A stretch of DNA of 64,000 nucleotides from Corynespora cassiicola (Eukaryota > Ascomycota > Dothideomycetes > Pleosporales > Corynesporascaceae): positions 1,364,001 to 1,428,000 of the forward strand of contig JAEUWY010000006.1 in assembly GCA_022059125.1 (NCBI GenBank), given 5' to 3'. The notes under the pieces are model-generated. The model was not told the DNA's origin. It saw nothing but the letters and a program-made list of their open reading frames with translations, and ran no database searches. Every line of letters starts with the position of its first letter. Position 1 is the first letter of the stretch. Of the stretch, positions 6,640 to 53,856 are shown piece by piece. Made by a program: the position numbers and the translations under genes.

Positions 6640-6714
6640 CGTTATCACGAATGATGCGGATGCTTTGGCTTGGATTCTCTATTTTTGGTCATCGGAGCTG
6701 CTGAACTAGACTGT

Positions 6715-9029: not shown

Positions 9030-9201
9030 ATGCGGAATTCCACAACTTAAGCTACAGCGCATACAGCATCCATTCTCCCCACAAAGCAGCTCGGCCAGAC
9101 AGATGCATGGCATCAATGGAAGAAATGAAACGTGGACGACTATTCAATCGAGGTATGACCGCCAATTATCAACTACTACACGAGTTCTGGGCTCAAATAG
9201 C

Positions 9202-10505: not shown

Positions 10506-10592
10506 ATTTCCGCCTGTTGCCTTGGACTCGGCTTCGCCGGGGTCGTGCTTAGGATCGAGGAGCGGGACTACATCATCCGTTCTCAGGGCCAT

Positions 10593-12383
10593 GTTTTGTA
10601 TTGCAGTCGCGGTTGATTTTGAGCCAAGAAGATGCGAAATGACGTTGATGGGCGAGGACTGTGTTCTCGGACCGTTTTATGCAGAAGGTATATGTTCCCA
10701 TTTTCAGAATTTATACGCAGTGTGACAGCGGGTAGATGGAAGCCTTCGTCATAGTGAGGGGCCAGTTGGACGATCGTGGTGGGGTGGAGCATGAGCTAGG
10801 AGCGGTTCCGAAGCCTGCCACGGCTGCCGAGCTTTGATTCGTCATCCCTTCCGATATCCTGCAATCTGGGTCTCCTTGCCGTATTTGACAGCACAAACAG
10901 GGTCTGGCACCCACAGTATCGTGAGCAAGCTGGTGCTATGACAACAACAATGTGGGTTTGCGAAGCCGTATGAAAAGTGGGTCAAATGATGAATGCCGCG
11001 AAGAGAATCGCACGGACCAAGAACAATGCCTCGTCCTTTCTCTCGTGGATGCAAAACGTGCTCTTTCTATCGAGGCATCATAAATCATGAAACTTGGGTA
11101 CCAGTGGTTTCCCCGCTCCCCGCACGATGAGAATGTCCCAAACGGGATGTTCGGCTGTTGCTTTGCACCCTTGTAGAACACGAGGACCGAGATCCAGAAC
11201 ATCCGATTAGTCTCGACATCGTATATAATCCTTATACACGCTGTTCCCTTTGTAGACGGTGCATCTGACCTCGAGGGGGGTACCACTTGAGCGTTTTGAG
11301 ATCTTCATGAACCAAATCACAGCGTTGTGTGATGCTGGCACGTTATGCCCCACATTTCCTGCAAATGGCCTTTGCTACATTTCCTCATGATATGTATATT
11401 CAGTACTCTGTCCATTATTTTGAGATATTACCATCAAGCACTTGACATAAAGAGGTCGTGCCACGATAAATAGCCAAGAATGAGTTGGTCTGATGTTGGT
11501 AGCAGTAGTACTACAAGGCGCAAGACCAATTATGGTGACACGGCGATCCTGGCAAAAGATAATGTAACCCAAGATAGTACCACGAAAAACGTTACAGCCG
11601 TTTGATTTTTGGTTCTTGCTGGGGACTCATACCATATCATTGTAAGCTCTTCCGCTCCAAAAGTGGAACTAGATAGTTTTCCGAAAAGATCACCGCTTTT
11701 GATGCTTCCAGGTGTAGACCGTCACCAAAGAATCCTTTCAGCTTTTCCCGAATCGTAACTATTGCTGACGCCAGTATACATATTCTGGCTCCGATCACGA
11801 ACCTCACATAATTCCACCGCTTACTCAGGCTACTTTATATTACATTGCCAAGGCTCGTATGCCGCCCTTTGAACTCAGGGCTAAGCTCCATCTACCCCGG
11901 ATTATTTCAATCATGGCTTTAAGCTTATTTTTGCTGATCATTTTTTAGAAAGATCTAGACCTGTGATGAGCTGAAGGTGATGCACGTGATAATGGTGAGC
12001 CTGCAGGACTGAGGAAGAGCGCAGGGCTTAGTGAATCATTCAATCTGAGTGTATTTCAGCTGATGGTCTTGGCGAAGATTCTGGTAAACTATGAACTCCG
12101 TCATGGGCCACTTTTGTATGATTCGCTTCGTATCATCGTTCTTCAGTGCCAAAGTGGGCTAGTTCCGAGTCTGACGCTCTCCGTTACTCATCGACAACGT
12201 CAATATGGAGTTGCATCACCAGTCTGAATGCTTTCTTTAGATCATTCAAGAATCTACATGGATTTCTGGGCAAGACCTATAAATTTCGAGACTGCTCTCT
12301 ATCGATTTCTCCTTACCACCGCATCTACTTTTCCCATAAAGTGAACTACGAACAATCACCACCTCACCTATCATCCTTCCAAT
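10593..12383. other. Gene-free region upstream of the dehydrogenase and the small secreted protein
   Basis: Several short frames exist on both strands, but none shows a motif, splice partner or convincing start context. A TATAAA at 12278-12283, about 100 bp before the ATG at 12384, is a plausible TATA box for the secreted-protein gene. Confidence 0.45.
12278..12283 (+). promoter_or_regulatory. Putative TATA box of the small secreted protein gene
   Basis: TATAAA lies 101 bp upstream of the ATG at 12384, a usual spacing for regulated fungal promoters. Assigned by position and sequence only. Confidence 0.45.
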
Positions 12384-13016
12384 ATGAAGTTCCTCGCTCT
12401 TATCACTCTTTCTGCCTCTATGGCATCTGCTGCCGATATTTGCCGTACTTCTGGTGCTGGCTGCACCGGCACGAAATTCTGCTGCAGTGGTATCCAGGAG
12501 GGCGTTTGCTGTACTTCCACTACGGGCAGCACTGAACGGCTTTGGACCTTGCCAGACAACAGGTAAGAGAGGATGAAAAGTCCGTAATGGCCGAGACCAG
12601 ATCAAAAGCTGATGATCGATAGCCGTTTCCAAGTCTGGTCCGGACAAAGCTGCACCGGCAACACTGGCGTTTTCAAGAACCCCACCAAGGTCACCAACAA
12701 ATGTATCAAGTTCAGCTGGCCCGGTAAGCATACCAACTCAACTTCATAGTGTCTCCTATCAGATGTCTCAGATGAGACCGGCCTTGTATACATAATTGAC
12801 GCTCCTCCAGTCTACAGTGCAAAGTGGCTTGCGGGTGGCGGTACGAAGCGCAGCGAGTCTGACTCTGAAGAGTGTGCTGAGCCCAACGTTGCCATCTATA
12901 CTCTTGATGGTGTCGATCACAAGGTCAAGATTCCAGCAGGGAATGCGTCGGTTGTTGAGGATTGGGTTGAGAAGGGGGAATGGAAGCTGCTTGCAGAGCT
13001 TGAGAGTGCCGAGTAG
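12384..13016 (+). CDS. Small cysteine-containing secreted protein (effector-like)
   Basis: 161 residues in three exons (12384-12562, 12623-12723, 12811-13016); both introns have consensus ends and the frame closes exactly. The first 17 residues (MKFLALITLSASMASAA) form a classical signal peptide. The mature N-terminus is cysteine-rich (ICRTSGAGC, KFCC, VCC), with further single cysteines in SCTG, NKCIK and EECAEP, ten in all, suggesting disulfides in an extracellular protein. The middle (RFQVWSGQSCTGNTGVFKN) resembles fungal secreted proteins with beta-strand folds, but no named family was recognised. A KR site in TKRSES could be a processing point. It precedes a membrane protein and a LysM gene, so a host- or environment-facing role is possible. 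Confidence 0.75.
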
Positions 13017-13241
13017 GCGCGTGCAGGTCATCATCTGATATTTCGGATGAAGATTTGCAAGAAATAGGTGGAGAATAATTTTCCGATAGCTCTTCATGGT
13101 CGTTGGTGCTCTCATAAAGTGAATGAGGTGTGGTGTCTGGGTTGGACGTTGGCGGGGGGTGCTCGGTCGCGTTGTTCAAGTCTGTCATCTTGTCTGTCAT
13201 CTCGTCTGTCGTTTTATCTGTCGCTACCATAATTCATTAGA

Positions 13242-14311
13242 CTATAATCTTAATAGAGGAATGGTTTTCCCTTATAATTGATTTCCGTCGGAAAAGTGCG
13301 TGGAAGAATGTTCGTTATATCAACTGACGAGAAAATACTTACCAGTCTGATTTTTTCCACCACTGAACACCACGGCTTCAGCATCTTGCCTTGGCGTGCG
13401 AGATCTTCTATTATATAATGCAATGAAGAACAGAAGGGAACAAAATGTGACTCCGAGCATGACTCCCACTGCAGAAAGAATGCCAGTGAGGCTTTTGGAA
13501 TAGATAAAATCGGGCGATGTTGCAAGATGTAGGCTATGCAATCGCCATGCTGTAATAGATAGAAGCCTAATAATTGTCAGTTAAGTCATATATTAAATAG
13601 GGTCGTAGAATTACACAACACCCGCATCCAAAGCTATGATTATGTGCGCCTTTTTCTTCATGCTTATTATGTGAAGCTTTGAAATAGAATATAACGGAAT
13701 GCCTAGTAGTGCGATATCAAGAGCAATCCCAACACACTCAACGATGATGAATGAGAGAATCTGGTTCCCGCAGGCCCCTCCAGCTTCGCTGTCCCATTGT
13801 GCCGAAAGTGGTCGGCATATCAAGAGTACCTCTATTACAGATGCAATACCATGGGTCAAAGAAAGACCCACTAGAGCCATTGTAAAGATCCGAGTTTTAC
13901 CGAATGCAAAGATTTTATGAAATAGAAGGCCTGCAGAAACTCGTAATAGAGCGTTGGCCAAGGTCCAAAGTGCCTCGTTGATGAGAAGTGACTGTGAGAA
14001 TATAAGCTCCCGAACGGTTTTTTTATATTGAAAGGAACAAGCGGGTTTACTTTTGCCAGTATCTGGATTTTATCATCGGAAAATTCCATTTGATGATCCT
14101 TCCCATCCTCCAATACCGTGGCCCACGTTGACTGACTAACGAGGACTATTCCAACGACAAAAGCTAGAGTATTTGACCCATCTGAGAGGTGAAATTTACG
14201 TAGGATGAATATCGATTGTATCAAGCAAATGCTGATTGAAAAAAATCCGAGGCTAGTAACTGTCCATGTGATAGCAAGATTAATCCTACCAAAATGGGAT
14301 AAAGAAGGCAT
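13242..14311 (-). CDS. Fungal rhodopsin-fold integral membrane protein (SAT4/PTH11-like group)
   Basis: About 296 residues, four exons (14051-14311, 13615-13991, 13343-13566, 13242-13270), introns 48-72 bp. The seven-helix pattern of the fungal rhodopsin-like domain is visible: helix 1 (WTVTSLGFFSISICLIQSI), a hydrophilic loop ending in ILAK, then a helix-rich core with ICRPLSAQWD and GACGNQ (the conserved cysteine pair), DIALLGIPLY, and a C-terminal helix GVMLGVTFCSLLFFIAL. Such proteins are plasma-membrane proteins, some of which act as receptors (Pth11). The 29 nt last exon is the least certain part. An in-frame Met at 14386 would add 25 residues. The protein is shorter than many family members and lacks a long cytosolic tail. 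Confidence 0.75.
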
Positions 14312-14727
14312 GTTGTGACCAGTTTTACTGTGATTGTATTTAGAGGGGAAAAAAAGGCCGGGACACTTTTGCAGCACTTGGCTCATGATATACTATCTTT
14401 TCCGAATAAGCATTACGGGCATGGGTGGCGCAGCATTTTCAAGAGTGGGTCGTAGATCGCGTTGGCTAATCTGTTTGGCCAAAATCACGCCAAGTAAAAT
14501 GCTGCATATATTGGCAACACAAGGCGCAAAGCAAGGCTGTAGGCTCGTAAATTGCCTTCAGTGCATGCGGCACCGGTGAACAGTAACATTGGAGCCTAGT
14601 GTGGAACAGAAAAGAGGCCGGATGTACTCAGGCACAAGGCTATGATTGGAAATAATCCATTTCTTCTACGTCTTCTGAGGGTTGCGAAATGGATAGAGCA
14701 AGCGTTAAGATGGCTTGCTCGGATTCT
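14312..14727. other. Intergenic region
   Basis: This lies between the start of the rhodopsin-like gene and the stop of the deoxyribosyltransferase-like gene, both on the minus strand. It should hold the promoter of the former. No coding signal was seen. Confidence 0.45.
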
Positions 14728-15222
14728 TCAACCTTGCAATCTCTCCATGAGCCTTCGTCTAACCTCCTCCTCGAGTTTGTCCACTGAATCGAGCAGTGGA
14801 ATGTTGTATCGAAGACAAACCATCTGCACATTTCCTTTCTTGTAAAAGCCCTGAGGACAACATACAACGGCCTTTCCAGTGCCAGCATACATACCAAGTT
14901 CAAGTAAGGTGACAGGCGTCAGCGTCCCAGGTGCAAAATGGAAGACAATCACATCCGCGACTTTCGCATGATCCATCTCCCACTCGACCTGTTCCTTGAA
15001 CTTTGGGAACGAAATGTCTTCAACCCAGGTGCTATCCCAGTCATCGCGTCGCGGATTCAAGATTGCTACTGGGAGGTCGGAGAGTGACGAGGCTAGCGAT
15101 GTTTGCCAGTCTGTCGTGGCATCTTTCTCGATACTTCCATACAGAATGACGGACGGCCTGTCGACCTCGGGCCGAAACGGAGGTTTGTAAATGATGCTTT
15201 TCAAAGTTTGTTCGGTCGACAT
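14728..15222 (-). CDS. Nucleoside 2-deoxyribosyltransferase-like protein
   Basis: 164 residues, single exon. The sequence fits the nucleoside deoxyribosyltransferase-like fold: an N-terminal beta strand with SVILYGSIEKD, a DDWDSTW segment, a DVIVFHFAPGTLTPVTLLELG segment whose glutamate sits where the family has its catalytic Glu, and a following beta strand KAVVCCPQGFYKKGN. Family members cleave or transfer the glycosidic bond of deoxynucleosides, or act as nucleotide N-glycosidases; the activity of this fungal subgroup is not established. There is no signal peptide. It sits between a membrane receptor-like gene and a LysM gene, all on the minus strand. Confidence 0.75.
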   Translation of the reverse strand: MSTEQTLKSIIYKPPFRPEVDRPSVILYGSIEKDATTDWQTSLASSLSDLPVAILNPRRDDWDSTWVEDISFPKFKEQVEWEMDHAKVADVIVFHFAPGTLTPVTLLELGMYAGTGKAVVCCPQGFYKKGNVQMVCLRYNIPLLDSVDKLEEEVRRRLMERLQG

Positions 15223-15465
15223 GGTTTAGGGATGTTGGTGACTGATCTTCGCTGCCTGAACCACAGCGCGGTTGAGGCCGACCCCGCCGCTCGGCAGTGG
15301 GCCAAAAACGGCTAGGCCGAATTTTTGGGTTGCATCACTTGTCACTAATCTTTCAGAGTATTTCTCCAATTATTTTGATCAATGTTATTTGTAAACATTA
15401 TTTATATGTATTGAATATTTTGACTCCAAAAATTACTACCAAGCTAATCATTTCAGGACATTCTC

Positions 15466-16175
15466 TTACGCCTCGACGCAAGAGAAGTATCCAGCCCAAG
15501 ACGCCCAATCCGCATCAGGGTCCTGGGTCTTGAAGTTCCAAGAGTTCCACTGCTGCTTAGTGATGTTGTTGGTGGAAAAGATGGTGGGAAGAGTCGGGAA
15601 GCCGGTGCTGTCAGTGTACTCGAACTTGGTGCAGTTGTCGACGATGCCAGGCATAACGGGGACAGGGGTCTGGTCGGGGGTGAAGATATCACCGCCCTCA
15701 ACTGGACCAGGGTATTCGTATCCAGAAACGCCAATGCAGACTGGGACGTAGGCACGGAGGCCGAAGCACTCCTGGCCGATCTCACTGTCGAGGAAAATCA
15801 GCAGCTGTTTGAGGGATTTGGAGTTTTGAATGAATGCACATACGGGTTCCACTTGTACAAGTCAGTAGCAGTGAAGTTGTTGAATCGGCTGACAACAGTG
15901 CCACAGTTCTCACCGGAGTCTACGATGTATGTCGCGACGCCTGACACTTGTTAGCGAAGCATTCAACAGAAGGAGAAACACGGTAACCTACAGTTCGTGG
16001 GGCGGCGAATGCAAACACATCCCGCAGCCACACTGCAGTAATCGCTGCACTCAGCAGGCATATCGGCCTGGCGGGCTTGGAGGCCAGAGTTCACATTAGG
16101 AGAAAAAGGAATTGCGCTGGCGGAAGCGATGGATGCAAGCAGAGCGATGCTGCTGGTGATGGTGAAAGAGACCAT
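15466..16175 (-). CDS. Secreted LysM-domain protein (effector-like)
   Basis: 199 residues in three exons (15992-16175, 15844-15940, 15466-15784); splice phases match exactly. Residues 1-21 form a signal peptide ending in ASASA. After a cysteine cluster (ECSDYC, AGCVC), the joined exons read CVATYIVDSGENCGTVV and then FTATDLYKWNP, the LysM pattern, followed by CFGLRAYVPVCIG. A second, diverged LysM-like unit follows near the C-terminus (CTKFEYTDSTG, ITKQQWNSWNF, WAGYFSCVEA). LysM domains bind chitin; secreted fungal forms can hide chitin from host receptors or shield hyphae. TTTATA on the plus strand at 16295-16300, which is a TATAAA box on the coding strand, lies 120 bp upstream of the ATG. 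Confidence 0.87.
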
Positions 16176-18487
16176 GATTGTTATTTTGGATGAATTAACG
16201 AACGAAAGACGCTGGATTAATCGATTCAGGTGTCTTATTAATGAACGAAGGGCTGATGATGGATGCTTCCAAAGCCTTTGGCTGGTACACCGAATTTATA
16301 TTCATCTCTTGGTCCCCTAAGCATAGGCAAGGGATCCAGACTGTACTAGTGTCATAGCGTCGCATCCCCAACATCCGGGAAATGAAAGTGTGGAGCATCA
16401 ACCCATGAGGATCCTAAATAAAGAAGCCCGGACCAGTTTATACATCCATTTCTGCGTTCGAAACATGAATTCGATGAGGTTGCCTGCGCTGGCGCAAGGC
16501 ATCGCTGAGGCTGCCTTGTTAGCGTTCTAAAAAAGGGGTCCGCTAAACCTAGACGAGAGAGGCGGTGAATTCGATGGATTTTTTCCGACGTCCTTGATGC
16601 GCTAGCACACGGGAACGTTAGTTCCCAGATGGATCTTGATCCTGGTGCTTAATCTACGGACGTAGGCAGCGACTCCCCTGACTACCAATGCGGTCGAATG
16701 AGAAGCGATGTGCAAAGCCTCAACGTCCGACTGCGGCCTTAGTTTTCTTGCGCTTATCTCCTAAGGCGGCATTAAATAAGCACTAATCTAACTATCGTAT
16801 GTCCGCTTCCGCACGATGAGCAGAAGTTTCTCAATTTGCAAAGTTTGTACAGGAAAAGAATGGGGGCCATTAGTGCGCGAAAGTGACGAGGAGTTAGTTG
16901 TGCGAACACATATCCAAACGAGGCATTTTGAATTACAAGATGTTCTGAGCGCAGGATCATAAGTCAAGTCCCTTGTCAGAAGCAATATATCAAGTTCGTA
17001 TTTTAGGCATCTTTTCGGAAATCCGAGAACACACCACAAAAATCTCACCGACGTTTCCTGATGGATAGGATACTTTTTCTGTTTTCCGGCATGCTTAGCA
17101 AATCAAGCGCGAACGAGACATAATCCAGATACAATATCGGTTGATTTCCTTACACCTACTCTTGCACTAAATTCTATTGATAAGATGAACGAAGATCTGA
17201 TGTTGTTATAATGTACCTTGCGATCTTGCCCTAGTCGTTGTTCTGAGACCTACCGGTTGGGTTATTTAGTAGATTACTCTGCACTTCTCTTGCAAATATT
17301 TTATGCATAAAATTAGCAGGGTAATCATTTGATAGTGATAGAACTGTTGGTATATCATCCCTCTTATTCCTTTGCTGCTTATGTCTATCCAGAACGTGCG
17401 AATGTGGCATGGTTTATAGTAAGAAAATAGAACTTGTAAACTTGGTATTGGAATATTTTTGCGCAAAAAGCCAACTCTGTCCCAAATATATCTAATAGCT
17501 TCTAAAGTGTTTAAAACAACTAAGTAGTAATATTTAAGGAGAAGCAAAGAGCTTGTAGCGATGACTATTAGACTGCACTATCCTGTCTTACCTTTAGGAT
17601 ACAGTCTCATTTCTGAGCTATACTATGTTATTGCTTGATGATGATGCAATGTAATTAAACACAACAAAAGCAACCTCTTATAACCTTTTGCACCTCTAAA
17701 TAGGATAAATCTTGTAAAGCCGACATAAGAATAACCATTATGCACTGCCGCCATCGAACTTGACCCCTTTAACCACCTCAACCGAAAAACTCTCACCGCT
17801 GAGATAATAATTTAAAGAGGAGAGGAACACCTTACGGACGGAGCCAACGTACCGGCAAAGTCGAGCGTCTGAATACTCCTCAGGCTATCTGACCAACCAC
17901 TTTCCAGCGAGTCCAAAGTAGGGACAATCGCAATTTTCTAGTAATCTCCCCTCAAAGGAAGAAGCACGATACAAGTAAAATCTCCAAATAAAATCCCCAA
18001 AAGGGTTTCCCACGCCCTAAAGACACAAAAAGGATATGACAGGCCCAGGGATCGTCCAAGGTAAGGGGGGGGGGAAATTGATAGCCATTTTCGTCGGATA
18101 CTTAGATTGAGAGTGTAGGTGTTAGATAAAGATGAATAGATCGACTTGGATATCAAATATAGACTATGAGACGTTCCCCTGTGGCGGCATTGGCGTTGAC
18201 AGTCACAAACATATACATTCCCAAAACCTGACACACGCATCTGCCCAGTCACATAGAGCCGTACGAAAGGGGAAATCTGGCATATGGTAATCAATATTCT
18301 TTTCATTCATTTGAATCTCACCTGTGGCGAGATAAACCCACTCAATGCCAAAAGCAGAACTCGTACACGGACTGTGCGACCTGAGCCTTATCTAAGACCA
18401 CGGATAATGTGTCCACAGAGCCACAGGCCACGTCTCGACTAAAATCCCATCACCGATTCCAAAGCACTGGTGCCGATATGTTCCCCC
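16176..18487. other. AT-rich gene-free block
   Basis: About 2.3 kb without a supported gene. From roughly 16.7 to 17.9 kb it is visibly AT-rich and full of stop codons in all frames, unlike the rest of the window. It could be a decayed repeat or a relict mutated by RIP, but no repeat copy or transposon domain can be recognised. A run of nine G residues sits at about 18066-18074. Confidence 0.5.
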
Positions 18488-19403
18488 TCACAAAGTCTCC
18501 GCAACAACCATCGGCCCCGCAACCTCATCCCTTTTCTCCTTCCCCGCAAGGAGTTCCACAATCGTCAACGAAAACAACAGGGCAGTTCCAGGCCCCCGAC
18601 TCGTAACAACCTTGCCATCAACCACAACCCTGTCGTCTGAATACTCCCAGCCCGCACTCTTCACTTCGTCCTTGACACTCGGATGACTCGTCGCCCTCGT
18701 CTTGTCCCCTCCAAACTTCTTCTGAGACGCTACAAGCGCCGTGGTGCCCGCGCAAATAGCCGCGACGTGCTTTCCCGCGGCGCGGAAGTTGTGGATCAGC
18801 TCGAGGACGGGCTCGTACGTCGAGAACGTCTTGGCTCCCGGGGCGCCGCCGGGAAGGATCAAAATGTCAAAGACCTCGTGGGCGCCCTTGTCCGGCACGC
18901 CCAGGAGGGTTTTGTGCTGCAGGGGGGGTGCGGGTGTGAGCGGATAAGCAGAGTGAGCGGGTGCGGTGGGTGCGGTGGGTGTAAGATCTCAAAGAGGAGG
19001 GGGAGTGGAAGTGGGGGGGATTGGTCTTACATCAGGTACTATGCGGACGTTACGCGTCATGCTGAGTATGGAGTGTTAGTCGGGGCTGCGGTACGGAGGG
19101 GGGGCGATACAGCTGGAACGAGGGCATGGAAAGGGGGAAAACTTACTGGGCGAATCCTTCGTCCTTGAGTTGGACGCCTGCAGATGTGACTTCGAAGCCG
19201 GCACGCGTGAGGACTGAGCGCCCCGTAAGCATGTGCCCCCCAGGAGGCGTGGTCTATCGGATGCCATCGTTTCTTACCATCATACGGTGTCACCTAGAGT
19301 CCAAGCCAATCAGCTTTTAGCCAGACGTCCAATTACGGGCTTGGAAACTTACAAATTCAATTTCCTCCGAGCCATCCGCGATCAGGATTAGAGCTTTCGG
19401 CAT
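18488..19403 (-). CDS. DJ-1/PARK7 family protein (glyoxalase III / deglycase type)
   Basis: 197 residues in five exons: 19353-19403, 19278-19293 (16 nt), 19147-19213, 19031-19061 (31 nt) and 18488-18916. The assembled protein has the ordered family motifs: ALILIADGSEEIE with the conserved Glu near position 15, FEVTSAGV, DILILPGGAPGA, and the nucleophile elbow HVAAICAGTTALV with Cys about residue 110, then the SHPSVKDEV and VVTSRGPGTALLF segments near the C-terminus. Members of this family remove methylglyoxal damage or act as redox-sensitive chaperones; which applies here cannot be told. Its length matches the family (about 190 residues). All five exons are needed to keep the fold. Confidence 0.88.
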
Positions 19404-20596
19404 AACGGGCAGACGCAAAGGATAGGGGCTGTCGTTGGGAATCTCGAGCAAGCAAGTTGGAAGTGATTGCGTATCAGAGCAGATGGAGACTCGGAAAAAG
19501 TGAAATTGTGTGGAAGCTTGAGACTTTCGGGAGTTCACATGGGTGGATTTGTTTATGTGACTTTGACGGCAGTGACGTCTGCGGGGCAGTCCACTTTGCG
19601 GGGTCCTGCGCCGAGGCCATGGGCGAATCAGAACAGGCAGGCTCCCTCAGGGCCGCACCTGCCCTTGGCAAGTGGCCTGACCTTGAACAAGACGCCTGGC
19701 TATGTTGTCAGAACGACATCAAGTTGAACAGTGCCTCCAGTTTCGGTTGGTCACAGCTAGCCAAGGCATCGGATGACCGCTTCTGCCCCCAATCCTACCA
19801 CGGCCATCTCATCCTGTACAGCATCACCCATCACCAAGACATGCAAAGGATCGAGAGTGAAATCGTTATATGTTCGCATTGCTCATTCAGGCCTGCGTGC
19901 GCAAATCATCAGAGGATATCAAATAACCGGTCTATGTTACTGCTCGTAACGCCCGCTAATCCCTTGTATTGCTGTCAAATTAGAGAGCAGCGAAAAACAC
20001 AGACCGCATCCACACATCTACCACGAAACCAGGGGAATCTCTCATAAGCTCATGCAGTGAACAGGACCGCCAGAAGAAGCGCCCAACGGAAGCCAACCGG
20101 GGCCGAATTTCCGTTTAATGCTTCCCCTGTATATTATTAACGCGGTGCACAGCTTTGATGGAGCGCCTGCCTCCTCCATCTGGCTGACAACCGGGCTTGG
20201 GAACTCGAAAGGACCAAAGGGGTATGCCAGAAAAAAACAAAAAAAACAAATAAACGCAGAGCCACATCTAAGAACCAGTGCTGGAGCGTAAATCGAGAAA
20301 ACCGGAGCGCCAAAGGGGATTTGGAAGTGCGATGGTAGGGACTGACGGTTCGAAATCGGTCCTAGTCTCCCATCAACAACGCGGATAAAAACTCCAGGAC
20401 GCCGGAAACCGTGATGAAAGATAGGTAGCTGCAATATCAAATGTATATCTTCCAGATGGCGTTATAATCCCGAGGAATGAATGGCCTGCTCCGTCTTCTT
20501 CGTGTAGTAGCCCCCACGCACCCCGCCCATGGACCCAAAGCTGCAGGCTAATCGATCTCCATACATGTTGTAGTCACAGGCTCGCGTCAGGCCCGT
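19404..20596. other. Intergenic region between areA and the DJ-1-like gene
   Basis: It holds the promoter of the DJ-1-like gene and the 3' untranslated region of areA. A 196-codon open frame on the plus strand (19457-20047) has no recognisable motif and is not called. The stretch next to the areA stop may be a long 3' UTR; in the Aspergillus homologue the 3' UTR controls mRNA stability, which cannot be judged here. Confidence 0.45.
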
Positions 20597-23563
20597 CTAC
20601 AGACTCATCGTCAGCCACTCCCATTCTTGGGGCCCGCTTGACTGCAGGCCTTGTCCCATGGCGCCCATGGGAAGACTGCCCAAGTTCTGGTTTTGCAACG
20701 TGTTGGATGCAACAACAGTCGACTCTCTTCTCCGAGCGCCCGACGGCGCCTTTCCGCTGGTGTCCTCTGCATCGGCCATTTCCAACTCCTGCACGCCACT
20801 CTTGCTCTGCCGGCGCGTCTTCTTGGGTGCCACGTTGACTGCACGGTTCTGAGCAGTGGTGCCCGTGTTGTTAGCAACTTGTTGCTTGGGTGGACCAGGT
20901 GCGATAGGAACCACACCGCCAGACTTCGCGCTTGCCATGGCACCTGACGCCGAATTGGCGCCACTCGCGCCTGTTGCCCCAACGCCGACAGACCCAGTCG
21001 ACTTGGGCGATTCGGAATCAGCGTGACTCGCTTTGGCGGACGTGGGTGTCGTGACGGGCGTTTGCGCAATCGAGTTCTTCCGGGACGACTTCTTGGACGA
21101 CCGCGTCGAGGCGGAGCCAACAGGAGCGGAGTTGCCGCTCCCGCGATTGCGCTTCTTGATGACGTCTGTCTTGAGCGACAGCGGGCGTACGACGCCATGC
21201 AGCTTCAGGAAGAGCCCGCATGCGTTGCAGAGAGGCTGACCCTCGGGGTTGCGACGCCAAAGCGGCGTGGTCTGAGTAAAGCAGTTGGTGCAGGTCGTGG
21301 GAACGCTGCCCTGCTCACCCTGCTTTGTTCCACCCGGACTGGCAGGTCGCGAGGGAGCCGCCGAACTAAAACCAGACTCTGGAGGGGAGCTGGGGGATGA
21401 CTGGGTAAGCCCATGGAGTCGCTGATGGGCTAGGCCAGCTGCGTTTGGTGTCGAGCTGGTGCGGGGAATCTTCTGCCGACGGGGGTCATTTCCACGATTG
21501 CGGATGTCACTCACAGAGGCGGCCGAGCCGTGGGTTCGGCCTAGGCTGCCTCCAGGGCTCCAATGATCTTGCGGTGAGGGCACCATTTCGGTCGGGCCGA
21601 TGGTTACGGTCTTCCGCGGGGGGCCCGCCGGGTAGCGCGCTGGCATGGGATTGAAGGTGTTGGACAGGTTGGTTTCCCACTGGAAGCCAGCGGTGAAATC
21701 GAGCGATCCATCGTCCATCGGCGAGTAATCAGATTGCGACGGCATGTTCCTGTCCGCAAACGCACTACCCTCATCTTCTTCGGCGTCCGAGTCGGCACCG
21801 AAGGTGAACATGTTCTCGCTTCGCGGTGGCTGCATGTTGTCCTGTCGCAGCGGGAGATTGTGGAGCACCTGGGAGGGCTCGACATGGCCAGGCTGGCCGA
21901 ACGAGGACGTGGAGAAGGGCGCGGATGCGCTCGCGTTGCTCACGGCACTGAACATGGAGTCGCCAGTGGCGCCGGGGTTGAAAATGTACTGAGGCTGCAT
22001 GGACGTGGACAGGTTGGACGGGCGGTGGGGTCCGTACGAAGCGCCGCCGTGCGGGCCTCGAATGTCCATGCCGTTGCGATCAAAGTACATTTGGTTTTCC
22101 TCGGCCATGGGCTGGGGGGTGGACACGGTGGACGGGAAGGCGGAGCTAGGTGGCGAGTAGTAGTCGGTCGAGTTCAAGGAGGAGGCCATGGAGTTTGGGT
22201 TGTAGAGGTTGCCGTACGAGGCGTTCTGGTTCATGAGGGGCGAGCCGACTGGCGAGAAGCCAAAGTTCTGCTGGAAGGGGCCAGCTGAGCTTATGATGGG
22301 GTCCTCGTGGAGCTGGAAGGTGTCTATGGAGAAGGGGACTGAGGGCTGGGGGGCCTGGAAGGTGGACGACGGCGGCATCGAGTGGTGATCCAGCGAGTAC
22401 GAGTTCAGTGCTGCCTCTGCCTCGGGGTCGTTTGGGATCATGATGCTGTTCACGGGAGGAACCTGGGGGGAGGCTTCTGCTCGCCGCTTGGGAGGCTGAT
22501 AAGGAATTAGCTGGTGGACACCAAGGGCAGAGGGGCAGGCAGATAAGGCACGTACTCGTCGCTCGTCAATGCTGGTTTTGCGAACGTGCCTCTGGACATA
22601 GCCAAACTCATTCTCTCGAATGATGGCGGGAGGGACTGAAGGAGCGGAGGCGCGGGCGAGGGAGTGGGTTTGGTCGTGGGATTGATTAGCCTTCCTTATC
22701 GGTATCGCTGGGGCGGTTGCATTGGAGGGTGCTCGCATCTCATTCGACGGAGACGGAGGCAGGCCCGCAGGGGAAGCCACCGACGAGGGAAATATAAATT
22801 CGTCGAGATTCATGGCGTCTGGGGCCTGTGCCTGGGCCTGCTGGTCCACAGACTTTCTCAATTGTGCGATCCCGCTCGGGGCGCTCTTGAGTGCGGGCCG
22901 TGCAGGCATGGCGGAGGCGGGCGGCGGGGGCTTCATGTCGTTCCGCTGCTGGGCGAGTCTGGTTGCGAAAAGGCAATTGTTAGCTTCAGCGTGTCCGAGT
23001 TGCAGGGTGGTTTGGGTCGCAGTCAGCGGCGAGCCATGGCGTGTTCCGTACCCTTTATTGCGATCGAGCTCGGCACGCCGCATGCTCATGGCCATCATTC
23101 GCCAGGTCAGATTCTCCATGCGCTCCGCATTTGGGAGCTGGGTTCTCGCCTTGGAGTACAGCTTCCATATCTGAGTCGCGAGCGGGTCGTTCTTCTGCAT
23201 TTCCTCTGGAGAGCCCATGTCGGCGGCATGCGCATCGTTGGCCAGCGTTGGGAATATTGAGTGCTCCAGCATGCCCTGGCGCGCGGCCACGTCGTCGGGC
23301 GAGAAGTCCAGGTTGGAGTCCAGGTTGGTGGAGGGGTGGAGGGACTGTTGGGGGGTGTGGTATTGTTGGTTGTGGTGGTGCTGGTGGTGGTGGTGGTGCC
23401 GGGGGGAGGAGGGGGAGTCTGGCAGGTCGCAGTCTGCGGCCACGGGCGAAAAGCGCACTCGGGCAGCGGCTCGTGGTGAGGTGGATGATGTAGGGAAGGG
23501 CTGCTGATCGGCGGCGCTGAACAGCGTCGACAGCACCCCACGCTGGTTGACCCCAGAGCCCAT
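20597..23563 (-). CDS. areA: GATA-type nitrogen regulatory transcription factor AreA/NIT2
   Basis: Global activator of nitrogen catabolic genes. A single GATA zinc finger ([19 protein letters not shown], then [16 protein letters not shown]) is followed by a basic tail with KKRNR. The N-terminal family block reads [16 protein letters not shown] and [15 protein letters not shown]. The C-terminus ends EWEWLTMSL, the conserved tail where the repressor NmrA binds in homologues. The DNA is open throughout, but two segments are introns by splice signals and comparison: 22959-23051 (93 bp, GTACGG, GCTAAC, CCAG) and 22496-22555 (60 bp, GTACGT, GCTAAT, CAG). Spliced length is about 937 residues from Met at 23563; an upstream in-frame Met at 23704 gives 984. 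A His-rich tract lies near the N-terminus. The finger motif and tail make the assignment firm; only the start is open. Confidence 0.95.
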
Positions 23564-25415
23564 TGTTGCGCAGAATCCTGGGGGTGTGCTCTGGCCGCGG
23601 CAGTGGATGCGGGCGTGACTTGTGGGATCTTGGGAGCTGAGTGGGATTGCCTTTTTTTGCTTCTGGGGAGCAGCAGCACAGCACGAGGGCGCAAGACGGG
23701 CCAATGCGCAGCGGGTTGAGAGGTGCGACAGGGCGACCAGGTCGGGGAGATTTCAATCAAGCACGCACACAGGGCGACGCCTGGATGAGCTGCAGAGGGC
23801 AGAGTTGCAGCGTGCCAGGCGGGCAGCTAGTGGGAGCAGAGAGGGTACCAGGCTTGGCCGGGGTGGGTTCGTCGCGCTGCACGCACGCAGCTGCACGCAC
23901 GAGGGTCGACGACAGCCGTGACGCTGCGGCGGCGGCCTGGCTGGGCTTGGGTCGCTCGGGCCTTCTGGGGGGTGGGTGCTGGGCCTTGCGGGCGAGAGAG
24001 AGTGGGTTGTCGAGGCAGGCTGCGGTATGGATGCGGAATGGATGCGGTATGGAGAGGCGTGCGCGAGCGACAATGGCGAGGGCGTGTGGGGGTCGGGCCA
24101 ATGGCGTCGGGGGTGAAGGAGCCCAAGGCGAGCCAAACGGCAGCGCACCCTCGAGCGTGGCCCAGGGAGGCCCACGGAGGCCCAGGTAGGCCCAGGTGAG
24201 GCCCCAGGGAAGGCCAGGATGCGCAGCCGCCGCGTCGTGCGTGCTGGGGCGTGCTGGGGCGCGCTGGGGACACTGGGCCCAAAGCGCCGTCCAGCGCCGT
24301 CGCAGCAGCCCTCGAGGGCGTCGGCGCACCTGTCAAAAAACCTACTCGGTGGCCGTCTGCCGTCCCAGCACTGCTAGCACTCACTGCTAACACTGCTAGC
24401 CCTCGTCGACGGCCTGCACTGTAGCCCTCGCAGCCGGCCTAGCAGCACCGCCAGCACCGCCAGCGCCCAGTCGAAACCGCAGCGTGCCGGCCGCCGCGCG
24501 CGGGCCCGTCGCCAGGCTCGCTTCTGAGGCCGTTGAGGGCGGGCGTGCAATGGCAGCAGCGAGCGGGCGACGTCGTCGGTGACCCTTTCGCCCTGGGCCC
24601 TACCGGCCCTAGGCCTGCAGCACGCCGCGGCATCCCTGTCTGCGAGCGCCAGGGCCGTGCAGGCCGCGAAACACCTCGCAGTGTAGCTGCCGACCTGCTC
24701 GGAGCAGTACACCGCACGCCTGTCTTGGACTCTCTCTCGCTGCGCGCCTGCGAGCCGGCCACGGCCACGGCCACGGCCACGGGCAAGCAGCACACCACCT
24801 GGCACGGCGCACAAAGAAGCAAGGACAGCACACATGCAATCCAATAGTACCAGGCAATAGGTGCTTGACAGCGCTGCTGGAGCCTCAACGCCCCGCCCCG
24901 ACCTCCCGCCGTTGGATGGTTCGCCCAAGCACGCTGTGGCGCGCCGTCCTCTCCGCCCCTTGGAGCCCGTCGTCTACGGGAAAAGACAATTCGCGGATGC
25001 GCCGCCGCTGATTGGCCGCCGCCCTGCGCCCTCACTGGCCGCCTTCTCCTGCTTTTGCGCATAATCAACACGGTCGGCGCCGCGACTGGCCTGCGTGCCT
25101 CGCCCGTTGCCCATCGCAGCCGACGCCGGCCGCTTCGGGCACAGGCCAGCGCAAGCCAGCACAAGCCAGAGGGGCTGCTCGCCGTCGCCGTCACCGTCGC
25201 CGTCGCCGTGGCGAGGGCTGCGGCCGCCAGCTCCCCAATCTCCTTGGTTTACCCGGCAGAGGAGGCTGCCTTCCGACCTGCGAAAACGGTCCGAGGACCC
25301 CCTTCCTGCTTTTCCCGACGCTGCCTCCCTCCAGCCTGCTAGCCTCCGCCGTGCCCACCGTGTCCACCGCGTCCTGCCTCGATCTCAGGGTCTCTTTTGG
25401 GCTCCACTCTTTATT

Positions 25416-32249: not shown

Positions 32250-33041
32250 TTAGCCCACAGTTCCAAACACGCGCCCCCAACCCTCAATGCGGCCCAACTC
32301 GCGCTTCACAAACTCAACCATGCGCTCCCTCTCCCTCGTCTCCTCCTCGCCCACCTCAATCACCACGGCGCCGTCCCGCCGCATGTCCTGGACGATCCTC
32401 CCGATGCTCCCCCCAAAGGCCCGGAACCGCGGCCAAAAGATGTCGTTTGGCCGCGCGCGTCCTAGGAAGCGGGACCGCGCTTCCCGCTCCGACATGTCGA
32501 GCACCAGGACCACTGTGTCGGGGCCCGGCGTCCAGAGCTGTTGGACGTGCTGTTTGAAGGCGAATCATTGGTCTGTGGCGCGGGGGAAGCCGTCGATGAG
32601 GGTGCAGGCTCGGGTTTTCGTTGTTGTTGTTGTAGTTGTTGTTGTAGTAATAGTGCCCGTATTTGTGTTTGTGGTGGCTGGGGGGAAGAGCAAGGGGGTG
32701 AGGAACTGGAGGCTGAGCGGGGTGGGGATCAAAGACCCGGCCTCTACGTTCGATTTTATGATTTGGAAGTCTTTGGGTGGGAAGGTGGAGAGGAGGGGGT
32801 GGAGGTGTGGAGGTGGGGTTGGGGAGGTGAGGCCTCGGAGCTCGTTGCCGATGGAGATGTGGGTTAGGGGGTGGTGGGCTTCTTCTTGGAGGGCGGTGCT
32901 GAGGGTGGTTTTCCCGGAGCAGGGGGGGGCGAGGATGAAGATTAGGAGGGGATTGGGGGGTTCGCGAGATGGTGGGTCTGGAGTGTTGATGGGCTCCTGC
33001 TTGGAGGGGCTCGAAGGTTTGGGGGTGGGGGTGTCTATCAT
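32250..33041 (-). pseudogene. P-loop nucleotide kinase (adenylate/UMP-CMP kinase type) with in-frame stop
   Basis: One continuous frame of 264 codons interrupted by TGA at 32565-32567 (codon 159). Upstream of it are a Walker A loop LAPPCSGKTTL (about residues 37-47), an NMP-binding-like segment (SIGNELRGL) and the kinase signature DGFPR (residues 150-154). Downstream, in the same frame, come FAFKQHVQQLW, VVLVLDMSE, a LID-like RFLGRARPND and a final helix to TAA at 32250, matching the rest of the fold. No GT-AG intron that keeps DGFPR can remove the stop. A CGA-to-TGA change is the simplest source. An Asn/Thr tract encoded by a TTG-type repeat precedes DGFPR. If translated as is, it would lack the LID and C-terminal half. 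It is divergent from the viperin-like gene. Confidence 0.7.
32620..32650. repeat. TTG trinucleotide repeat inside the kinase-like gene
   Basis: Imperfect GTT/TTG tandem on the plus strand. On the coding strand it encodes most of a Thr/Asn-rich run placed just before the DGFPR motif, where homologues have only a short loop. Confidence 0.75.
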
Positions 33042-33449
33042 GTTGATGAAGTTGTGGGGATTTGACGGATTTAACGGATTGGGCGGGCTTGCGATTGTGG
33101 GGAGTACCAGCGTGCGGGTTTGTTATATAGTTCCTTGGTTGTTGCTGGTTCTTACTAGACGATTGTGTAAAAAGCCAGTCTGGTCGAAAGGTCACGAAAT
33201 ATCATGTGCATTGAGGTCGTCACTGGGGGGAAACCAGAACTCTTCAGTATCATCCACATATCACCAACCCCGTGGCAAGGTCATGCCAAAGACTTTCATC
33301 ATGCGCACAGATTCCACAAATGCTGTAACAATCTCAACCACAAACAACTCGGCCTATATAAGCTGGGTCATCTTAAGCCCCCGGCTTCGACAATCAACGG
33401 AATTCCGCAGTCAACATTAGTTCAAGTAACTTCGAAACAACAAGACATA
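33042..33449. promoter_or_regulatory. Shared divergent promoter of the kinase-like and viperin-like genes
   Basis: 408 bp between the start codons of the two divergent genes. On the plus strand a TATATAAG at 33355-33362 lies about 88 bp before the viperin ATG. Strong TATA boxes are typical of inducible genes. The minus-direction promoter has no clear TATA. Confidence 0.55.
33355..33362 (+). promoter_or_regulatory. Putative TATA box of the viperin-like gene
   Basis: TATATAAG about 88 bp upstream of the ATG at 33450. Assigned by sequence and spacing. Confidence 0.5.
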
Positions 33450-34544
33450 ATGCCCGTTACCAGCTCTCTCATTAGTAGGATTGGTCCACGATACATGCTC
33501 GCTACGGTTGGTGCTGGTGTTCTTGCATACATCCTCTACCGCCATCATGTACAGTCATCTCGCATCATACCCATCAGTGTGAATTACCATTTCACACGCA
33601 AGTGTAATGCTGCCTGCAGCTTCTGCTTCCACACAGAATTGACATCGTTCATCTCCTCAACTGCAAACTCCAAGCTTGTTCTCAAAATGCTCGCCGATGA
33701 GGGCATGAAGAAGCTCAACTTTGCGGGTAGGGAGCCTTTTCTGTATCCTAGGCAGCTTGCCGAGCTGTGCCAGTACGCAAAACAAGAACTTAAGCTCGAG
33801 AGTGTTAGCATCGTGTCCAATGGAACGCGCATTAGAGAGAATTGGCTGCGAGAGAATGGCGCGAACATTGATATCCTGGCCGTTTCGTGCGATTCATTCT
33901 TTGCTGAGACGAACAAGAAGATTGGAAGGGCGGAACGCTCCACTGGCAAGCCATTCGATAATGTGGAGAAACTTTTTCGGATTCGCGATTGGTGCCGCGA
34001 ACTTGGGATTAAGTTCAAGCTTAACACTGTGGTGTGCAGCTTGAATTGGGAAGAGGATATGGGGGACGTTGTACGGCGGCTGGACCCATTCCGCTGGAAA
34101 GTTTTCCAAGTTTTGATCGTAGATGGAGAAAACGAAGATGCCAGCAGAATTCGAGATGCTAGGAAGATGTGTGTCACTGATGAGCAGTTCAAGTTGTTCT
34201 GCGAGAAGCACAAGAATATGAAGGGCTTCACACCCGAAGGCAACGATGTCATGCGCAACAGCTGTCTGGTAAGTCTCATTTTCGGTTCCCTGAGATGGTT
34301 GAGTATTAACGGAGCACAGATTTTGGATGAGTATCTTCGATTTTTAGATCCAGGAAATGGTAGACGGAATAACTCAGATCCTATTCTCGAGGTAGGCGTT
34401 CAGAAAGCCCTGAGCCAAGTGAATTGGGATCAAGAAGGTTTCCGAGCTAGGGGTGGGCTGTATGACTGGAGCCGTGGCAATGAAGAAACCCACTCTTTCG
34501 GGGGCGCAATGGAAGGAATCGATCCGAAAGACCTAGAGTATTAG
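33450..34544 (+). CDS. RSAD2: Viperin-like radical SAM enzyme
   Basis: Fungal homologue of viperin, which in vertebrates converts CTP to ddhCTP, a chain terminator of viral polymerases. 347 residues in two exons (33450-34268, 34320-34544); vertebrate viperin is 361. Residues 1-30 include a hydrophobic segment (YMLATVGAGVLAYILY), in line with membrane or lipid-droplet anchoring. NYHFTRKCNAACSFCFHTEL carries the CxxxCxxC iron-sulfur ligands (Cys52, 56, 59). Further viperin blocks follow: SVSIVSNGTRIRE, ILAVSCDSF, FKLNTVVC, RWKVFQVLIVDGEN and LDEYLRFLD, the last joined to SCL by removing a 51 bp stop-free intron (34269-34319). The SAM-binding GGEP motif reads GREP (residues 93-96). The C-terminus is DLEY. 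The nucleotide substrate of this fungal form is unknown. Confidence 0.92.
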   Translation: MPVTSSLISRIGPRYMLATVGAGVLAYILYRHHVQSSRIIPISVNYHFTRKCNAACSFCFHTELTSFISSTANSKLVLKMLADEGMKKLNFAGREPFLYPRQLAELCQYAKQELKLESVSIVSNGTRIRENWLRENGANIDILAVSCDSFFAETNKKIGRAERSTGKPFDNVEKLFRIRDWCRELGIKFKLNTVVCSLNWEEDMGDVVRRLDPFRWKVFQVLIVDGENEDASRIRDARKMCVTDEQFKLFCEKHKNMKGFTPEGNDVMRNSCLVSLIFGSLRWLSINGAQILDEYLRFLDPGNGRRNNSDPILEVGVQKALSQVNWDQEGFRARGGLYDWSRGNEETHSFGGAMEGIDPKDLEY

Positions 34545-35355: not shown

Positions 35356-36602
35356 CTACCCCTTCTTCGCCCACAACTCCACATCCAACAACCAATCAAA
35401 CCCTAAATTCTCCCCCCCTCCCCCCTCCCCCCTAAAGACCCTCTCAAACCCCCCCACCAACCACTCCACCGCCGGCGACCCCGGATTCGCAAACCGCCCC
35501 AAGTGCCCCCACTCATACTCTGGCACCTCTCCCCCATCCAAACTCCCGTCATTCCACAGCAGCGCGGCCGGGACCCTCACCTCGACTCCCTTCTCCTCCT
35601 TCTCCTTGGCCAGGTCCGCGACGATTTGCTTGACGGGGATGGATGGGTAGACGGACATGACGAGCGACCCGCCATCCACCATCAGGAAAGCATCTGGGTC
35701 GTGCACGAGCGTGACCTCGGGGTCAAAGGCGCCAAATACGGCGACGTCGTCCTCGGTGTAGGAGGGGTCTTGCGCGAAGATGCGGATCGGCGTCGAGGGA
35801 GCGGCGGAGGCGTCGCGCGCAGCATACAGCCCCGTCAGCGTGCGCGCGACATACGCAGCAACGACGTGCTGCGCATACGCATGCGCCTTCGCGTCCATGG
35901 TGCCGAGCGCAATGCAGACGACGTTGGTGACGCGCGGTCCGGCCATGTCCACCAGTTTCGAAAGGGAAGCGGTGAGTTGTGCTTGGAAGCGGGTGCGCTG
36001 CCAGAGGGTGTGGACGGTGGCTAGGTTCTTGGACTTTACGCCCAGATCGACGGATGCGCTTGCGGGAGCGGAGGAAGTCTTGAAGTCGATGAAAAGGGGG
36101 AGTTTGCTCGTCGAGAGGAAAGCGTCAGCGGTGATTTTGGGATCGAGGCGCGCGAGGGCCGAGGGGAGTTCTCCGGCTGAGGAGAGCGAGGCGAGGGTCG
36201 TGGGGAGGGAGGTGTCGGCGAGGACGTGGACGCTGTTGTATGCTATTTGTGGTTTGAGGCTGGAAATGGTGGTTTAATATGTCTTCTCTTTCTTGTTGAT
36301 GGCAGATGTTTGAAGCTGCTTCGAGCTTCACGATCTCACCCCGCGTTGATGGCGTCTTCTGTCTCGAAGGAGTGCTCTTGGCCGAAGCAGTCTACTAGAG
36401 CAATCGTCTCGCCTCTTGATGCTTTGTTGCGCTGTTGGACGGCGGCCATGAGTGATGCGCGCGTGAAGATGGGTTTGTTTTCTATGGCGCTGAAAAAGGC
36501 CCTTATGTCGATGCGCGTTGGCAGACGAGACTCTTCCTTCTCGGTTGAAGCCATCTCTGGCTTGTTATTGGATTGCTCGTTGTCCAATTTGGACTGTGAC
36601 AT
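35356..36602 (-). CDS. SRR1-like domain protein
   Basis: 388 residues in two exons (36340-36602 and 35356-36259; GTGAGA donor, CCAG acceptor, 80 bp intron). The C-terminal half carries SRR1-like family blocks: FAQDPSYTEDDVAVFGAF, then VHDPDAFLMVDGGSLVMSVY followed by PSIPVKQI. Upstream are LWQRTRFQAQL and VCIALGTMD, matching the beta-alpha core. SRR1 (Arabidopsis) affects phytochrome and clock signalling and yeast Ber1 microtubule-related growth; the molecular activity is not established, so no function is given for this fungal protein. The N-terminus (MSQSKLDNEQSNNKPEMAST) is hydrophilic. It converges with the viperin-like gene. Confidence 0.8.
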
Positions 36603-51555: not shown

Positions 51556-53199
51556 ATGGAGAGAAAACGCATAGCAATCGTCGGCAGCGGCATATCCGGA
51601 CTCTCCGCCCTCTGGACCCTTCGCAATGCAGGCCACGAGGTCCACCTTTATGAGAAAGAAGAGAGACTCGGTGGACACACGAACACAGCGATATGGTCAC
51701 GCAATGGCCACGAAACGCCGGTGGATACTGGGTTCATTGTGTTAAACACGGCAACATACCGTGAGTAAAGGAATTTCACGTGCCGAAAATTGAGACAGTG
51801 GGCTGATGAACCCAGCCAACTTCATTGAGTTTCTCGCAGCTCTCAAGGTAAAGACGATGCCTTCGCAAATGACGTTTGGAGTTTCGCGCGACCAAGGTGC
51901 ATTTGAATGGTCAGGGACATCTCTAGGAGCACTTTTTGCGCAAAAGTTCAACATCATCAAACCTAGCTTTTGGCGCATGATATTTGATATTGTGCGCTTC
52001 AACATGTTTGCTCTAGATCTGCTGTCGTCTCCAGCTGCCTCTGAAGCCGATGAGATGAGCATTGGAGAGTATCTTGAGAAAGAAGGATATTCAGATGTTT
52101 TCAGGGACGACTATCTCATTCCCATGACGGCATGTGTCTGGAGTACCGGCCCTGACAAGTGTGCACTCGAATTTCCTGCCTTGACTCTTGTGAGGTTCAT
52201 GTGGAACCACCATCTTCTATCCACAGTTGCGGAACGTCCGCCCTGGTTGACGGTTGAAGGCGGCTCAAAACAGTATATTAAGGCCGTTATGAGGGATTGC
52301 GAAGCGGCACCAGTTTCTCTTGGGACACCAGTCGAGTCCGTGAAACGCAAAGATAGCAAGGTACTTTTGACATTAGGAGGACGAGGCGAGGGCAAGATGG
52401 AGGCATTTGATGAAGTCATTTTGGCCTGCCATGGAGACCAAGCTCGCCAGATTATCGGCACCAGCGCAACTCTGGAAGAAAAGGATATCCTCGATGCCTT
52501 CGAAACCACACCGAATACCGCATATCTCCATTCCGATCTTTCCGTAGGTATTCTGCAACGGTCGGCTCTGGAGCTTTTGCTGACTTTGTCTAGCTCATGC
52601 CGCAACGTCGTGTCGCCTGGGCTGCGTGGAATTATCTTACGACTTCTCAGGATCCTTCCAAGCCCATGGGTTCTGCCTCCGGAGATCTGCAAACAGTCTG
52701 CCTAACTTACAACATGAACATTCTCCAAGAGTTGCCAACTGAGAAGTTTGGCGACGTTCTTGTGACTCTAAATCCGGAAAAGCCACCGTCGCCTTCACTG
52801 ACCCAAGCTACATATCAGTATCGACATCCACTATATAATTCTCGAATGATTGCTGCCCAAGAGAATTTGGAGAGAATTCAGGGAAAGAGGGGAGTATGGT
52901 ATGCGGGAGCCTGGACTGGCTATGGATTCCACGAGGATGGTTTCTCCAGTGGAATGAGGGTGGGTTTGCGGCTTGGTGGCAGTGTACCATGGGAAGCCAA
53001 AGATGCCAAATTCAGCAGAGGATTGAGGCCAGAACTTGGTTGGAAAGATTACGTAGTGAGAGTTTTGGTTGCGTTTCTCCAGCTCTACATCTCCCTACTG
53101 GATCGTGTTCTGGGAGGGCGTAGGTCAGATAACAGCGCGAAGACGAACGGTCAAGCGAATGGCAAGGCGATAGCGAATGGGAAAGCGAAGGCGTTGTAG
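51556..53199 (+). CDS. FAD-dependent amine-oxidase-type oxidoreductase
   Basis: 512 residues in three exons (51556-51760, 51816-52543, 52594-53199; introns 55 and 50 bp). The N-terminus is a dinucleotide-binding fold, IAIVGSGISGLSALWTLRNA, ending in Glu (LYEKEERLGGHTNT) for FAD. VDTGFIVLN then follows, and the exon junction restores TATYPNFIEFLAAL. The C-terminus has GVWYAGAWTGYGFHEDGFSSG, the second FAD contact. This matches a family of flavoproteins related to amine oxidases and often encoded near cyclopropane-fatty-acid synthases in bacteria; no such neighbour is present here. The substrate is unknown. A hydrophobic helix (VLVAFLQLYISLLDRVL) and a repetitive KANGKA-type tail follow the domain. 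Confidence 0.87.
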
Positions 53200-53473
53200 A
53201 TCGAGAGGCATCTAAAAGGTCGGATTAGACTATTCCGGGCTGCTTCAAATCAGCACGCCAGTCACGAAAATTCATCACTCCGTGCGCGAGAAGTTGGGTA
53301 GCCGAATGGTCGTTATTATGCCATTGAATTTTGAGAAATCCTGATAAACCCATGATGTTCGTTACAGGACCGGCACCCGAATGCTAGGGCGAGCCATGTC
53401 ATTTTGCGAGATGGCTGCCCGCAATGTGAAAGACGCTCGAAGAACTCCTCCAACCCATGCCCGTAATGCCACT

Positions 53474-53856
53474 TTAAACCTCAGCAATCTCCCTCAATCG
53501 GCGGATGGTGGACCGTGTGGCGGCAGCGGCGGGGGTCGAGACAGTGTAGGCTCCACCGGCGGTGGTCTTGCGGCAGGACTTGCAGTTCCAGATACCGACA
53601 GCAGTCCTGGTTTTTGGTGAGCACTCGCTAATATGTGCGAAGCGGGCGCGTAATTACCTCTTGACGGCGTTCTTTCCGCAGAATTGGCAGATGTAACGGG
53701 CGTGCTGGGTGATCTGGAACGGGCGTGAGCGACTGCTTCTCTGTCTACGGAAATTTCGAGTCGTACCTCCATCTTCTTCACCTGCTTACGGAGCGAGGCA
53801 CCGTAACGGGTACCATACTTTCCCGTGATTCCGACCTTCTTGGTACGCTTGGTCAT
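53474..53856 (-). CDS. RPL43: 60S ribosomal protein eL43 (Rpl43/L37a)
   Basis: Zinc-ribbon protein of the large ribosomal subunit. 92 residues in three exons (53767-53856, 53658-53713, 53474-53606), the family's standard length. The start is [20 protein letters not shown], and splicing gives KKMEITQHARY, then CQFC and CKSC, the two halves of the zinc ribbon, and the end [11 protein letters not shown]. Introns are 53 and 51 bp, and their use is required because each exon is short. Confidence 0.95.

Follow-up and report, generated by a model that had tools for sequence, protein, structure and literature searches.

Does a viperin gene that lies beside a nucleotide kinase gene in a filamentous fungus belong to an antiviral module, or have two independent genes come to rest next to each other? 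The question is raised by the window, by which we mean the whole stretch of 64,000 nucleotides of Corynespora cassiicola DNA that was analysed. We find that both viperin loci of this genome adjoin a kinase-like gene. On balance we think it somewhat more likely than not that the genome has two pairs of viperin and nucleotide kinase, one in the window and the other, uninterrupted, on another contig, C12, and that the underlying mechanism is an antiviral-nucleotide one.

The viperin gene of the window

The window pair comprises the following features, given in the order of their coordinates:

32250-33041, minus strand: divergent adenylate/UMP-kinase-like gene, interrupted, a probable pseudogene
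32565-32567, minus strand: TGA stop that interrupts the kinase in frame, just past DGFPR (from sequence)
32580-32594, minus strand: DGFPR motif (from sequence)
32907-32930, minus strand: P-loop APPCSGKT (from sequence)
33042-33449, no strand: 408 bp of intergenic DNA from one start codon to the other (from coordinates)
33450-34544, plus strand: viperin (radical-SAM nucleotide dehydratase) gene, exons 33450-34268 and 34320-34544, 347 residues
33603-33626, plus strand: CxxxCxxC motif CNAACSFC, for the 4Fe-4S cluster (from sequence)
33729-33731, plus strand: codon 94, within the GGEP motif, R where 120 of 120 others and the sibling strain have G
34263-34265, plus strand: codon 272, C, where 120 of 120 others and the sibling strain have Y
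34269-34319, plus strand: intron of 51 nt, GTAAGT...CAG, which keeps the frame and is stop-free

As judged by comparison of proteins, the gene on the plus strand is a real viperin, with a similarity certainly beyond chance. It matches pVip in PADLOC (E 7.7e-62), solved viperins in the PDB (E down to 4.5e-95) and Radical_SAM in Pfam (51.3 bits). The NCBIfam viperin model NF038283 scores 223.7 bits, above its cut-off of 180, and TIGR04278 scores 321.2 bits, below its cut-off of 450. A search of protein databases returned 2460 homologues at E <= 1e-3, of which the best 120 are listed; the closest among these matches listed is a protein of a sibling strain, Corynespora cassiicola Philippines, 98% identical in the alignment. 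The viperin-like radical SAM gene proposed in the sequence-only reading is thereby confirmed, with the addition of the 51-nt intron, which that reading had not reported. None of the 14 other aligned rows has this intron, and once it is spliced out the 347-residue protein is colinear with its homologues.

Two residues set this copy apart. The protein retains CxxxCxxC and fits the viperin profile, and at the SAM-binding motif it reads AGREP instead of GGEP. We therefore describe it as a viperin by descent, of doubtful activity. Compared with the sibling strain it differs at 7 residues over 322 compared columns; given that conservation reaches at least 95% in 99 of those columns, two of seven changes at such sites is what would be expected of unconstrained change. 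As a sign of decay R94 and C272 are thus suggestive, short of proof.

Several other features of the window were noted. An SRR1-domain neighbour lies downstream (35359-36273, minus strand, E 9.2e-12), a GATA zinc-finger protein with an AreA domain, of the nitrogen-regulator type, is found at 20600-23752 (minus strand), and a UV-endonuclease UvdE at 59323-60975 (minus strand, E 5.3e-99). In 4-kb steps the GC content is 47-50% at 1-20000 and at 52001-56000, and 61-63% at 20-28 kb.

A second head-to-head pair and the question of linkage

Searches of the whole genome (44.35 Mb, 23 contigs) detected viperin in two places only, the window and C12:544932-545786. The second place likewise holds a pair:

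C12:543525-545837, head to head: the second pair, neither gene visibly broken
C12:543525-544325, minus strand: kinase, three exons, 233 residues, start codon at C12:544325
C12:544809-545837, plus strand: viperin, uninterrupted, 342 residues, with GGEP and CxxxCxxC

The C12 viperin carries both motifs, fits the viperin profile and matches pVip in PADLOC at 6.9e-71. The frame of its kinase neighbour is uninterrupted after splicing of two introns, and the P-loop and arginines are conserved. With 77.3 bits to Pfam ADK (PF00406; cut-off 26.8) this kinase belongs to the ADK class, and it falls far below the NCBIfam cut-offs for adenylate kinase (96.6, cut-off 187) and UMP-CMP kinase (80.7, cut-off 207.6). 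PF02223 (Thymidylate_kin) is absent from its Pfam matches at E <= 0.001, and the VakA profile reaches only E 0.016.

In the genome PF00406 has nine matches at five loci, one of them C12:543694-544224 on the strand opposite the viperin. The start codons of the C12 pair are separated by 483 bp, and in the window the divergent arrangement and the 408-bp spacing proposed earlier hold true in the sequence. An ADK-class kinase thus stands on the opposite strand, head to head, at both viperin loci, and by our own arithmetic (5 loci / 44.35 Mb) the chance that an arbitrary spot has a PF00406 locus no more than 1 kb away is about 2 in 10,000. The idea of a functional pairing in a fungus gains from this, in that both viperin loci have a kinase within 0.5 kb; it loses in the window itself, where the pair, as a module, is probably not working.

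How old is this arrangement? The two viperins share 52% identity. A tree of 43 rows, of which 41 come from the 120 homologues listed, puts them into separate supported clades: the window viperin groups with Pleosporales and Leotiomycetes (16 rows, 97/86), and the C12 viperin with environmental sequences and those of Chaetothyriales, Xylogone and Trichothecium (14 rows, 100/98). Comparison of the 64-kb window with 30 kb of C12 reveals no other translated similarity at E <= 1e-4, a level that the kinase pieces themselves do not reach in this screen; thus no larger duplicated block appears to lie behind the two pairs. The 408-bp stretch is a possible shared promoter region; between the window and C12 intergenic stretches no shared motif exceeds shuffled expectation (eight 8-mers against a mean of 5.5, two 9-mers against 1.4, no 10-mer).

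To which family does the C12 kinase belong? A profile built from the C12 kinase and both pieces of the window kinase (see below) retrieved 150 proteins at E <= 1e-3, and the best 120 of the 150 were inspected. Among these matches listed, about 115 (P0122-P0236) are of the C12 type, with identities of at least 43% over the matched part; the window type is represented by P0226, and four others (P0237, P0239, P0240 and P0241) are general kinases of 31-33% identity. Proteins of the C12 type have an extra stretch after DGFPR and conserved residues of their own, and their source annotations vary between adenylate kinase and UMP-CMP kinase. The named rows we take to be Pezizomycotina, apart from P0219, which is labelled Quercus suber and is taken for contamination; many other rows are nameless. 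Sequence comparison thus assigns the C12 kinase to a separate, largely Pezizomycotina family. A structure model of one member, P0123 (37-row alignment, mean pLDDT 89.2), matches AK1/AK5-type adenylate kinases, yeast uridylate kinase and UMP-CMP kinases alike in a structure search, so AMP and UMP/CMP as substrates cannot be told apart from the fold. As to a grouping with housekeeping adenylate kinases, a possibility considered in the sequence-only reading, the C12 family branches apart from the general kinases (support 91/94), and the window kinase is unplaced, on an end branch of 4.84 that does not join the C12 family.

A question remains, are viperin and kinase merely neighbours by chance? 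Under this explanation the two adjacencies would be coincidental, or a single one would have been carried along by an old duplication, and the two proteins would work separately. The unplaced position of the window kinase favours it, and so does the distribution in other fungi. Six species occur in both lists (Corynespora, Lindgomyces, Lentithecium, Byssothecium, Massariosphaeria and Trichothecium), and in all six the listed viperin and the listed kinase, one copy of each being compared, lie on contigs of unequal size, with no sign of linkage. Different contigs are no surprise for Corynespora, whose listed viperin represents the window type and whose listed kinase represents the C12 type; in the other five a second viperin could fall outside the matches listed. 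Many Fusarium species have a C12-type kinase, and their viperins are absent among the 120 matches listed. Conversely, Xylaria, Hypoxylon, Mycena and Lachnellula have a listed viperin and no C12-type kinase among the best 120 of 150. Across fungi the pairing is therefore partial at best. Against coincidence stand the identical layout and near-equal spacing at both viperin loci, and the distance between the two viperins, 52% identical and in separate clades, which implies that a layout of no use would have lasted for a long time. We consider chance adjacency rather unlikely, and the linkage would then reflect a joint function of viperin and kinase.

The same two proteins were looked for beyond fungi. 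In viral contigs 46 stretches fit the viperin pattern, none of them a relative, and the kinase scan yielded 88 relatives, of which 80 were kept, with best segments 21-38% identical. In prokaryote contigs a scan with the fungal viperin alignment detected two loci, both in short contigs, and inspection of their ORFs by eye revealed no kinase.

The state of the window pair

The kinase-like gene of the window had been described as a P-loop nucleotide kinase with a DGFPR motif at 32250-33041 of the minus strand. The kinase likeness stands: P-loop, SIGNELR, DGFPR and lid arginines are all read on that strand. The single open frame does not, because of the TGA at 32565-32567. A search for a single GT-AG intron (45-160 nt) that would excise this stop and keep the frame gave 0 candidates; the stop is the only break in 263 otherwise unbroken codons. 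The gene thus lacks a complete open frame and retains its motifs.

Because of the stop the window kinase was compared as two pieces, N and C, after a low-complexity stretch had been cut from the N piece, with 2000 shuffles per comparison. The N piece scores z 12.8 with the C12 kinase, 17.9 with the C23 kinase (presumably Ura6-like, a label taken from its motif) and 14.5 with the C1 kinase, and none of the 2000 shuffles scores as high. The C piece reaches z 7.6 against the C12 kinase, again with 0 of 2000 shuffles as high, and only 2.8 against the C23 and 0.3 against the C1 kinase; for the other kinase pieces z does not exceed 2.9. A profile that combines 83 family members with the C12 kinase scores 33.9 bits on the N piece and 24.8 bits on the C piece. 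Of the 63 columns that are conserved across 34 family rows the window kinase retains 30, including the P-loop lysine, the DGPR of DGFPR, Q112, R49, R157, R161, R163 and R175; three P-loop glycines and D46 are altered. General profiles count against it: Pfam ADK scores 19.1 bits on the N piece (cut-off 26.8) and does not match the C piece, and the whole-genome PF00406 search did not recover the gene. As for a VakA-type partner, its pieces have no match in PADLOC. Taken together, these comparisons indicate that the window kinase is a real, very divergent relative of the adenylate/UMP kinases.

Relatives of the window kinase itself are scarce. In a search of 5.8 billion proteins the N piece has no match at E <= 1e-3 among 44 candidates, and proteins of the sibling strain (P0002, P0122) are present in the same database. 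The C piece is 94% identical, with 5 differences, to P0226, a protein of 87 residues from a different contig of 1010 bases. P0226 starts 17 codons beyond the position of the stop in the window kinase, which would suggest a shared break. We regard the window kinase as a probable pseudogene.

Might the window pair be functional all the same? The TGA could be an assembly error, be read through or delimit a shorter protein, and the two viperin changes could be errors or be tolerated; the retention of the catalytic arginines and P-loop lysine, and a frame with one stop and no further break in 263 codons, fit such an explanation. Yet it requires three separate, disabling-looking changes within 2.3 kb to be harmless, none of which has a counterpart in the C12 pair, and it sits poorly with an N piece that has no predicted relative at E <= 1e-3 despite the sibling-strain proteins in the database, and with a P0226 whose start lies 17 codons beyond the stop position. 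We judge it improbable. That the window kinase is a chance open frame in GC-rich DNA and no relic of a gene is scarcely credible: at 62% GC the stretch also has an open frame on its plus strand, so that an open frame by itself is weak evidence, and the Pfam match is below cut-off, but with the C12 kinase both pieces outscore every one of 2000 shuffles, as the N piece does with two more kinases of the genome, and the motifs stand in the correct order along the whole length.

Given the stop in the kinase and the deviation of the viperin at two otherwise invariant residues, the window pair is probably not a working module. We infer that it is decaying and that the C12 pair is the working one. RIP, readthrough of the stop or RNA editing might conceivably account for the changes. 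The damaged window copy, set against the intact-looking viperin of the sibling strain, suggests that a module of this kind can be lost within one species group.

A proposed mechanism and its known relatives

How might such a pair act? By analogy with the Thielavia terrestris and animal viperins, from which the viperin and nucleotide chemistry is drawn, the viperin would convert CTP and/or UTP to the 3'-deoxy-3',4'-didehydro analogue, and this analogue would terminate the chains of viral RNA. Its neighbour, a kinase of the AK1/UMP-kinase class, would phosphorylate nucleoside monophosphates, feeding or recycling the nucleotide pool, and both genes would be expressed from the shared intergenic region. 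The nucleotide substrate and the antiviral role of the pair are thus putative. We propose, tentatively and with less assurance, that Pezizomycotina recruited a separate partner derived from adenylate/UMP kinases, independently of animals and bacteria with their thymidylate-kinase-like partners, to form a head-to-head antiviral module that undergoes duplication and then loss. Should the C12 pair work, fungi would represent another solution in which a kinase feeds viperin, with a kinase family other than the bacterial and animal one, and filamentous fungi would have in it a testable candidate for antiviral nucleotide chemistry.

Among nucleotide kinases, adenylate kinase 1, Ura6 and UMP-CMP kinase have the fold, P-loop, DGFPR and lid arginines in common with the C12 family, which nevertheless is a separate family, distinguished by its extra stretch after DGFPR and by scores far below the NCBIfam cut-offs.

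In vertebrates RSAD2 and CMPK2 are adjacent genes, and CMPK2 is thymidylate-kinase-like. Here too a viperin adjoins a nucleotide kinase that is proposed to supply its nucleotide substrate. The fungal partner differs in being of the ADK class, outside the thymidylate-kinase-like class, so the likeness to a CMPK2 pairing drawn in the sequence-only reading does not extend to the kinase. Animal viperin activity depends on the partner kinase CMPK2, and a CMPK2-like kinase adjoins 15% of bacterial viperin genes (PMC11249213).

In our own survey of one bacterial phylum, pVip occurs at E <= 1e-40 in 4 of 398 genomes, one of the four being the centre around which the phylum sample was drawn, and in 0 of 14 controls. 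Reading of ORFs places a kinase next to pVip at one of the four loci, one other locus being short. At the locus with the kinase, the one analysed with Pfam and PADLOC, the kinase matches Thymidylate_kin (58 bits) and VakA (5.3e-74) and lies on the same strand as pVip. The locus spans L114:3516-5126, and transposase-like ORFs are seen alongside by eye. The pVip and VakA pair thus places a viperin beside a kinase as the fungal pairs do, whereas its kinase is of the Thymidylate_kin/VakA type and on the same strand, and the fungal ones are of the ADK class and head to head.

A fungal enzyme of known activity is also available for comparison: the Thielavia terrestris viperin/SAND, of the same family as the window and C12 viperins, makes ddh analogues from CTP and UTP, and the accessible part of its description mentions no kinase partner (PMC9642334). 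Among the papers listed in our literature search none describes a viperin-kinase gene pair in fungi; such pairs may already be described in Shomar et al. 2024 or Bernheim et al. 2021. Viperin-kinase linkage is in any case already known, and the fungal ADK-class pair is a variant of it. Linkage of eukaryotic viperins with nucleotide kinases, of which the head-to-head pairs of Corynespora would be an instance, was reportedly noted by Shomar et al. 2024 (Nat Ecol Evol).
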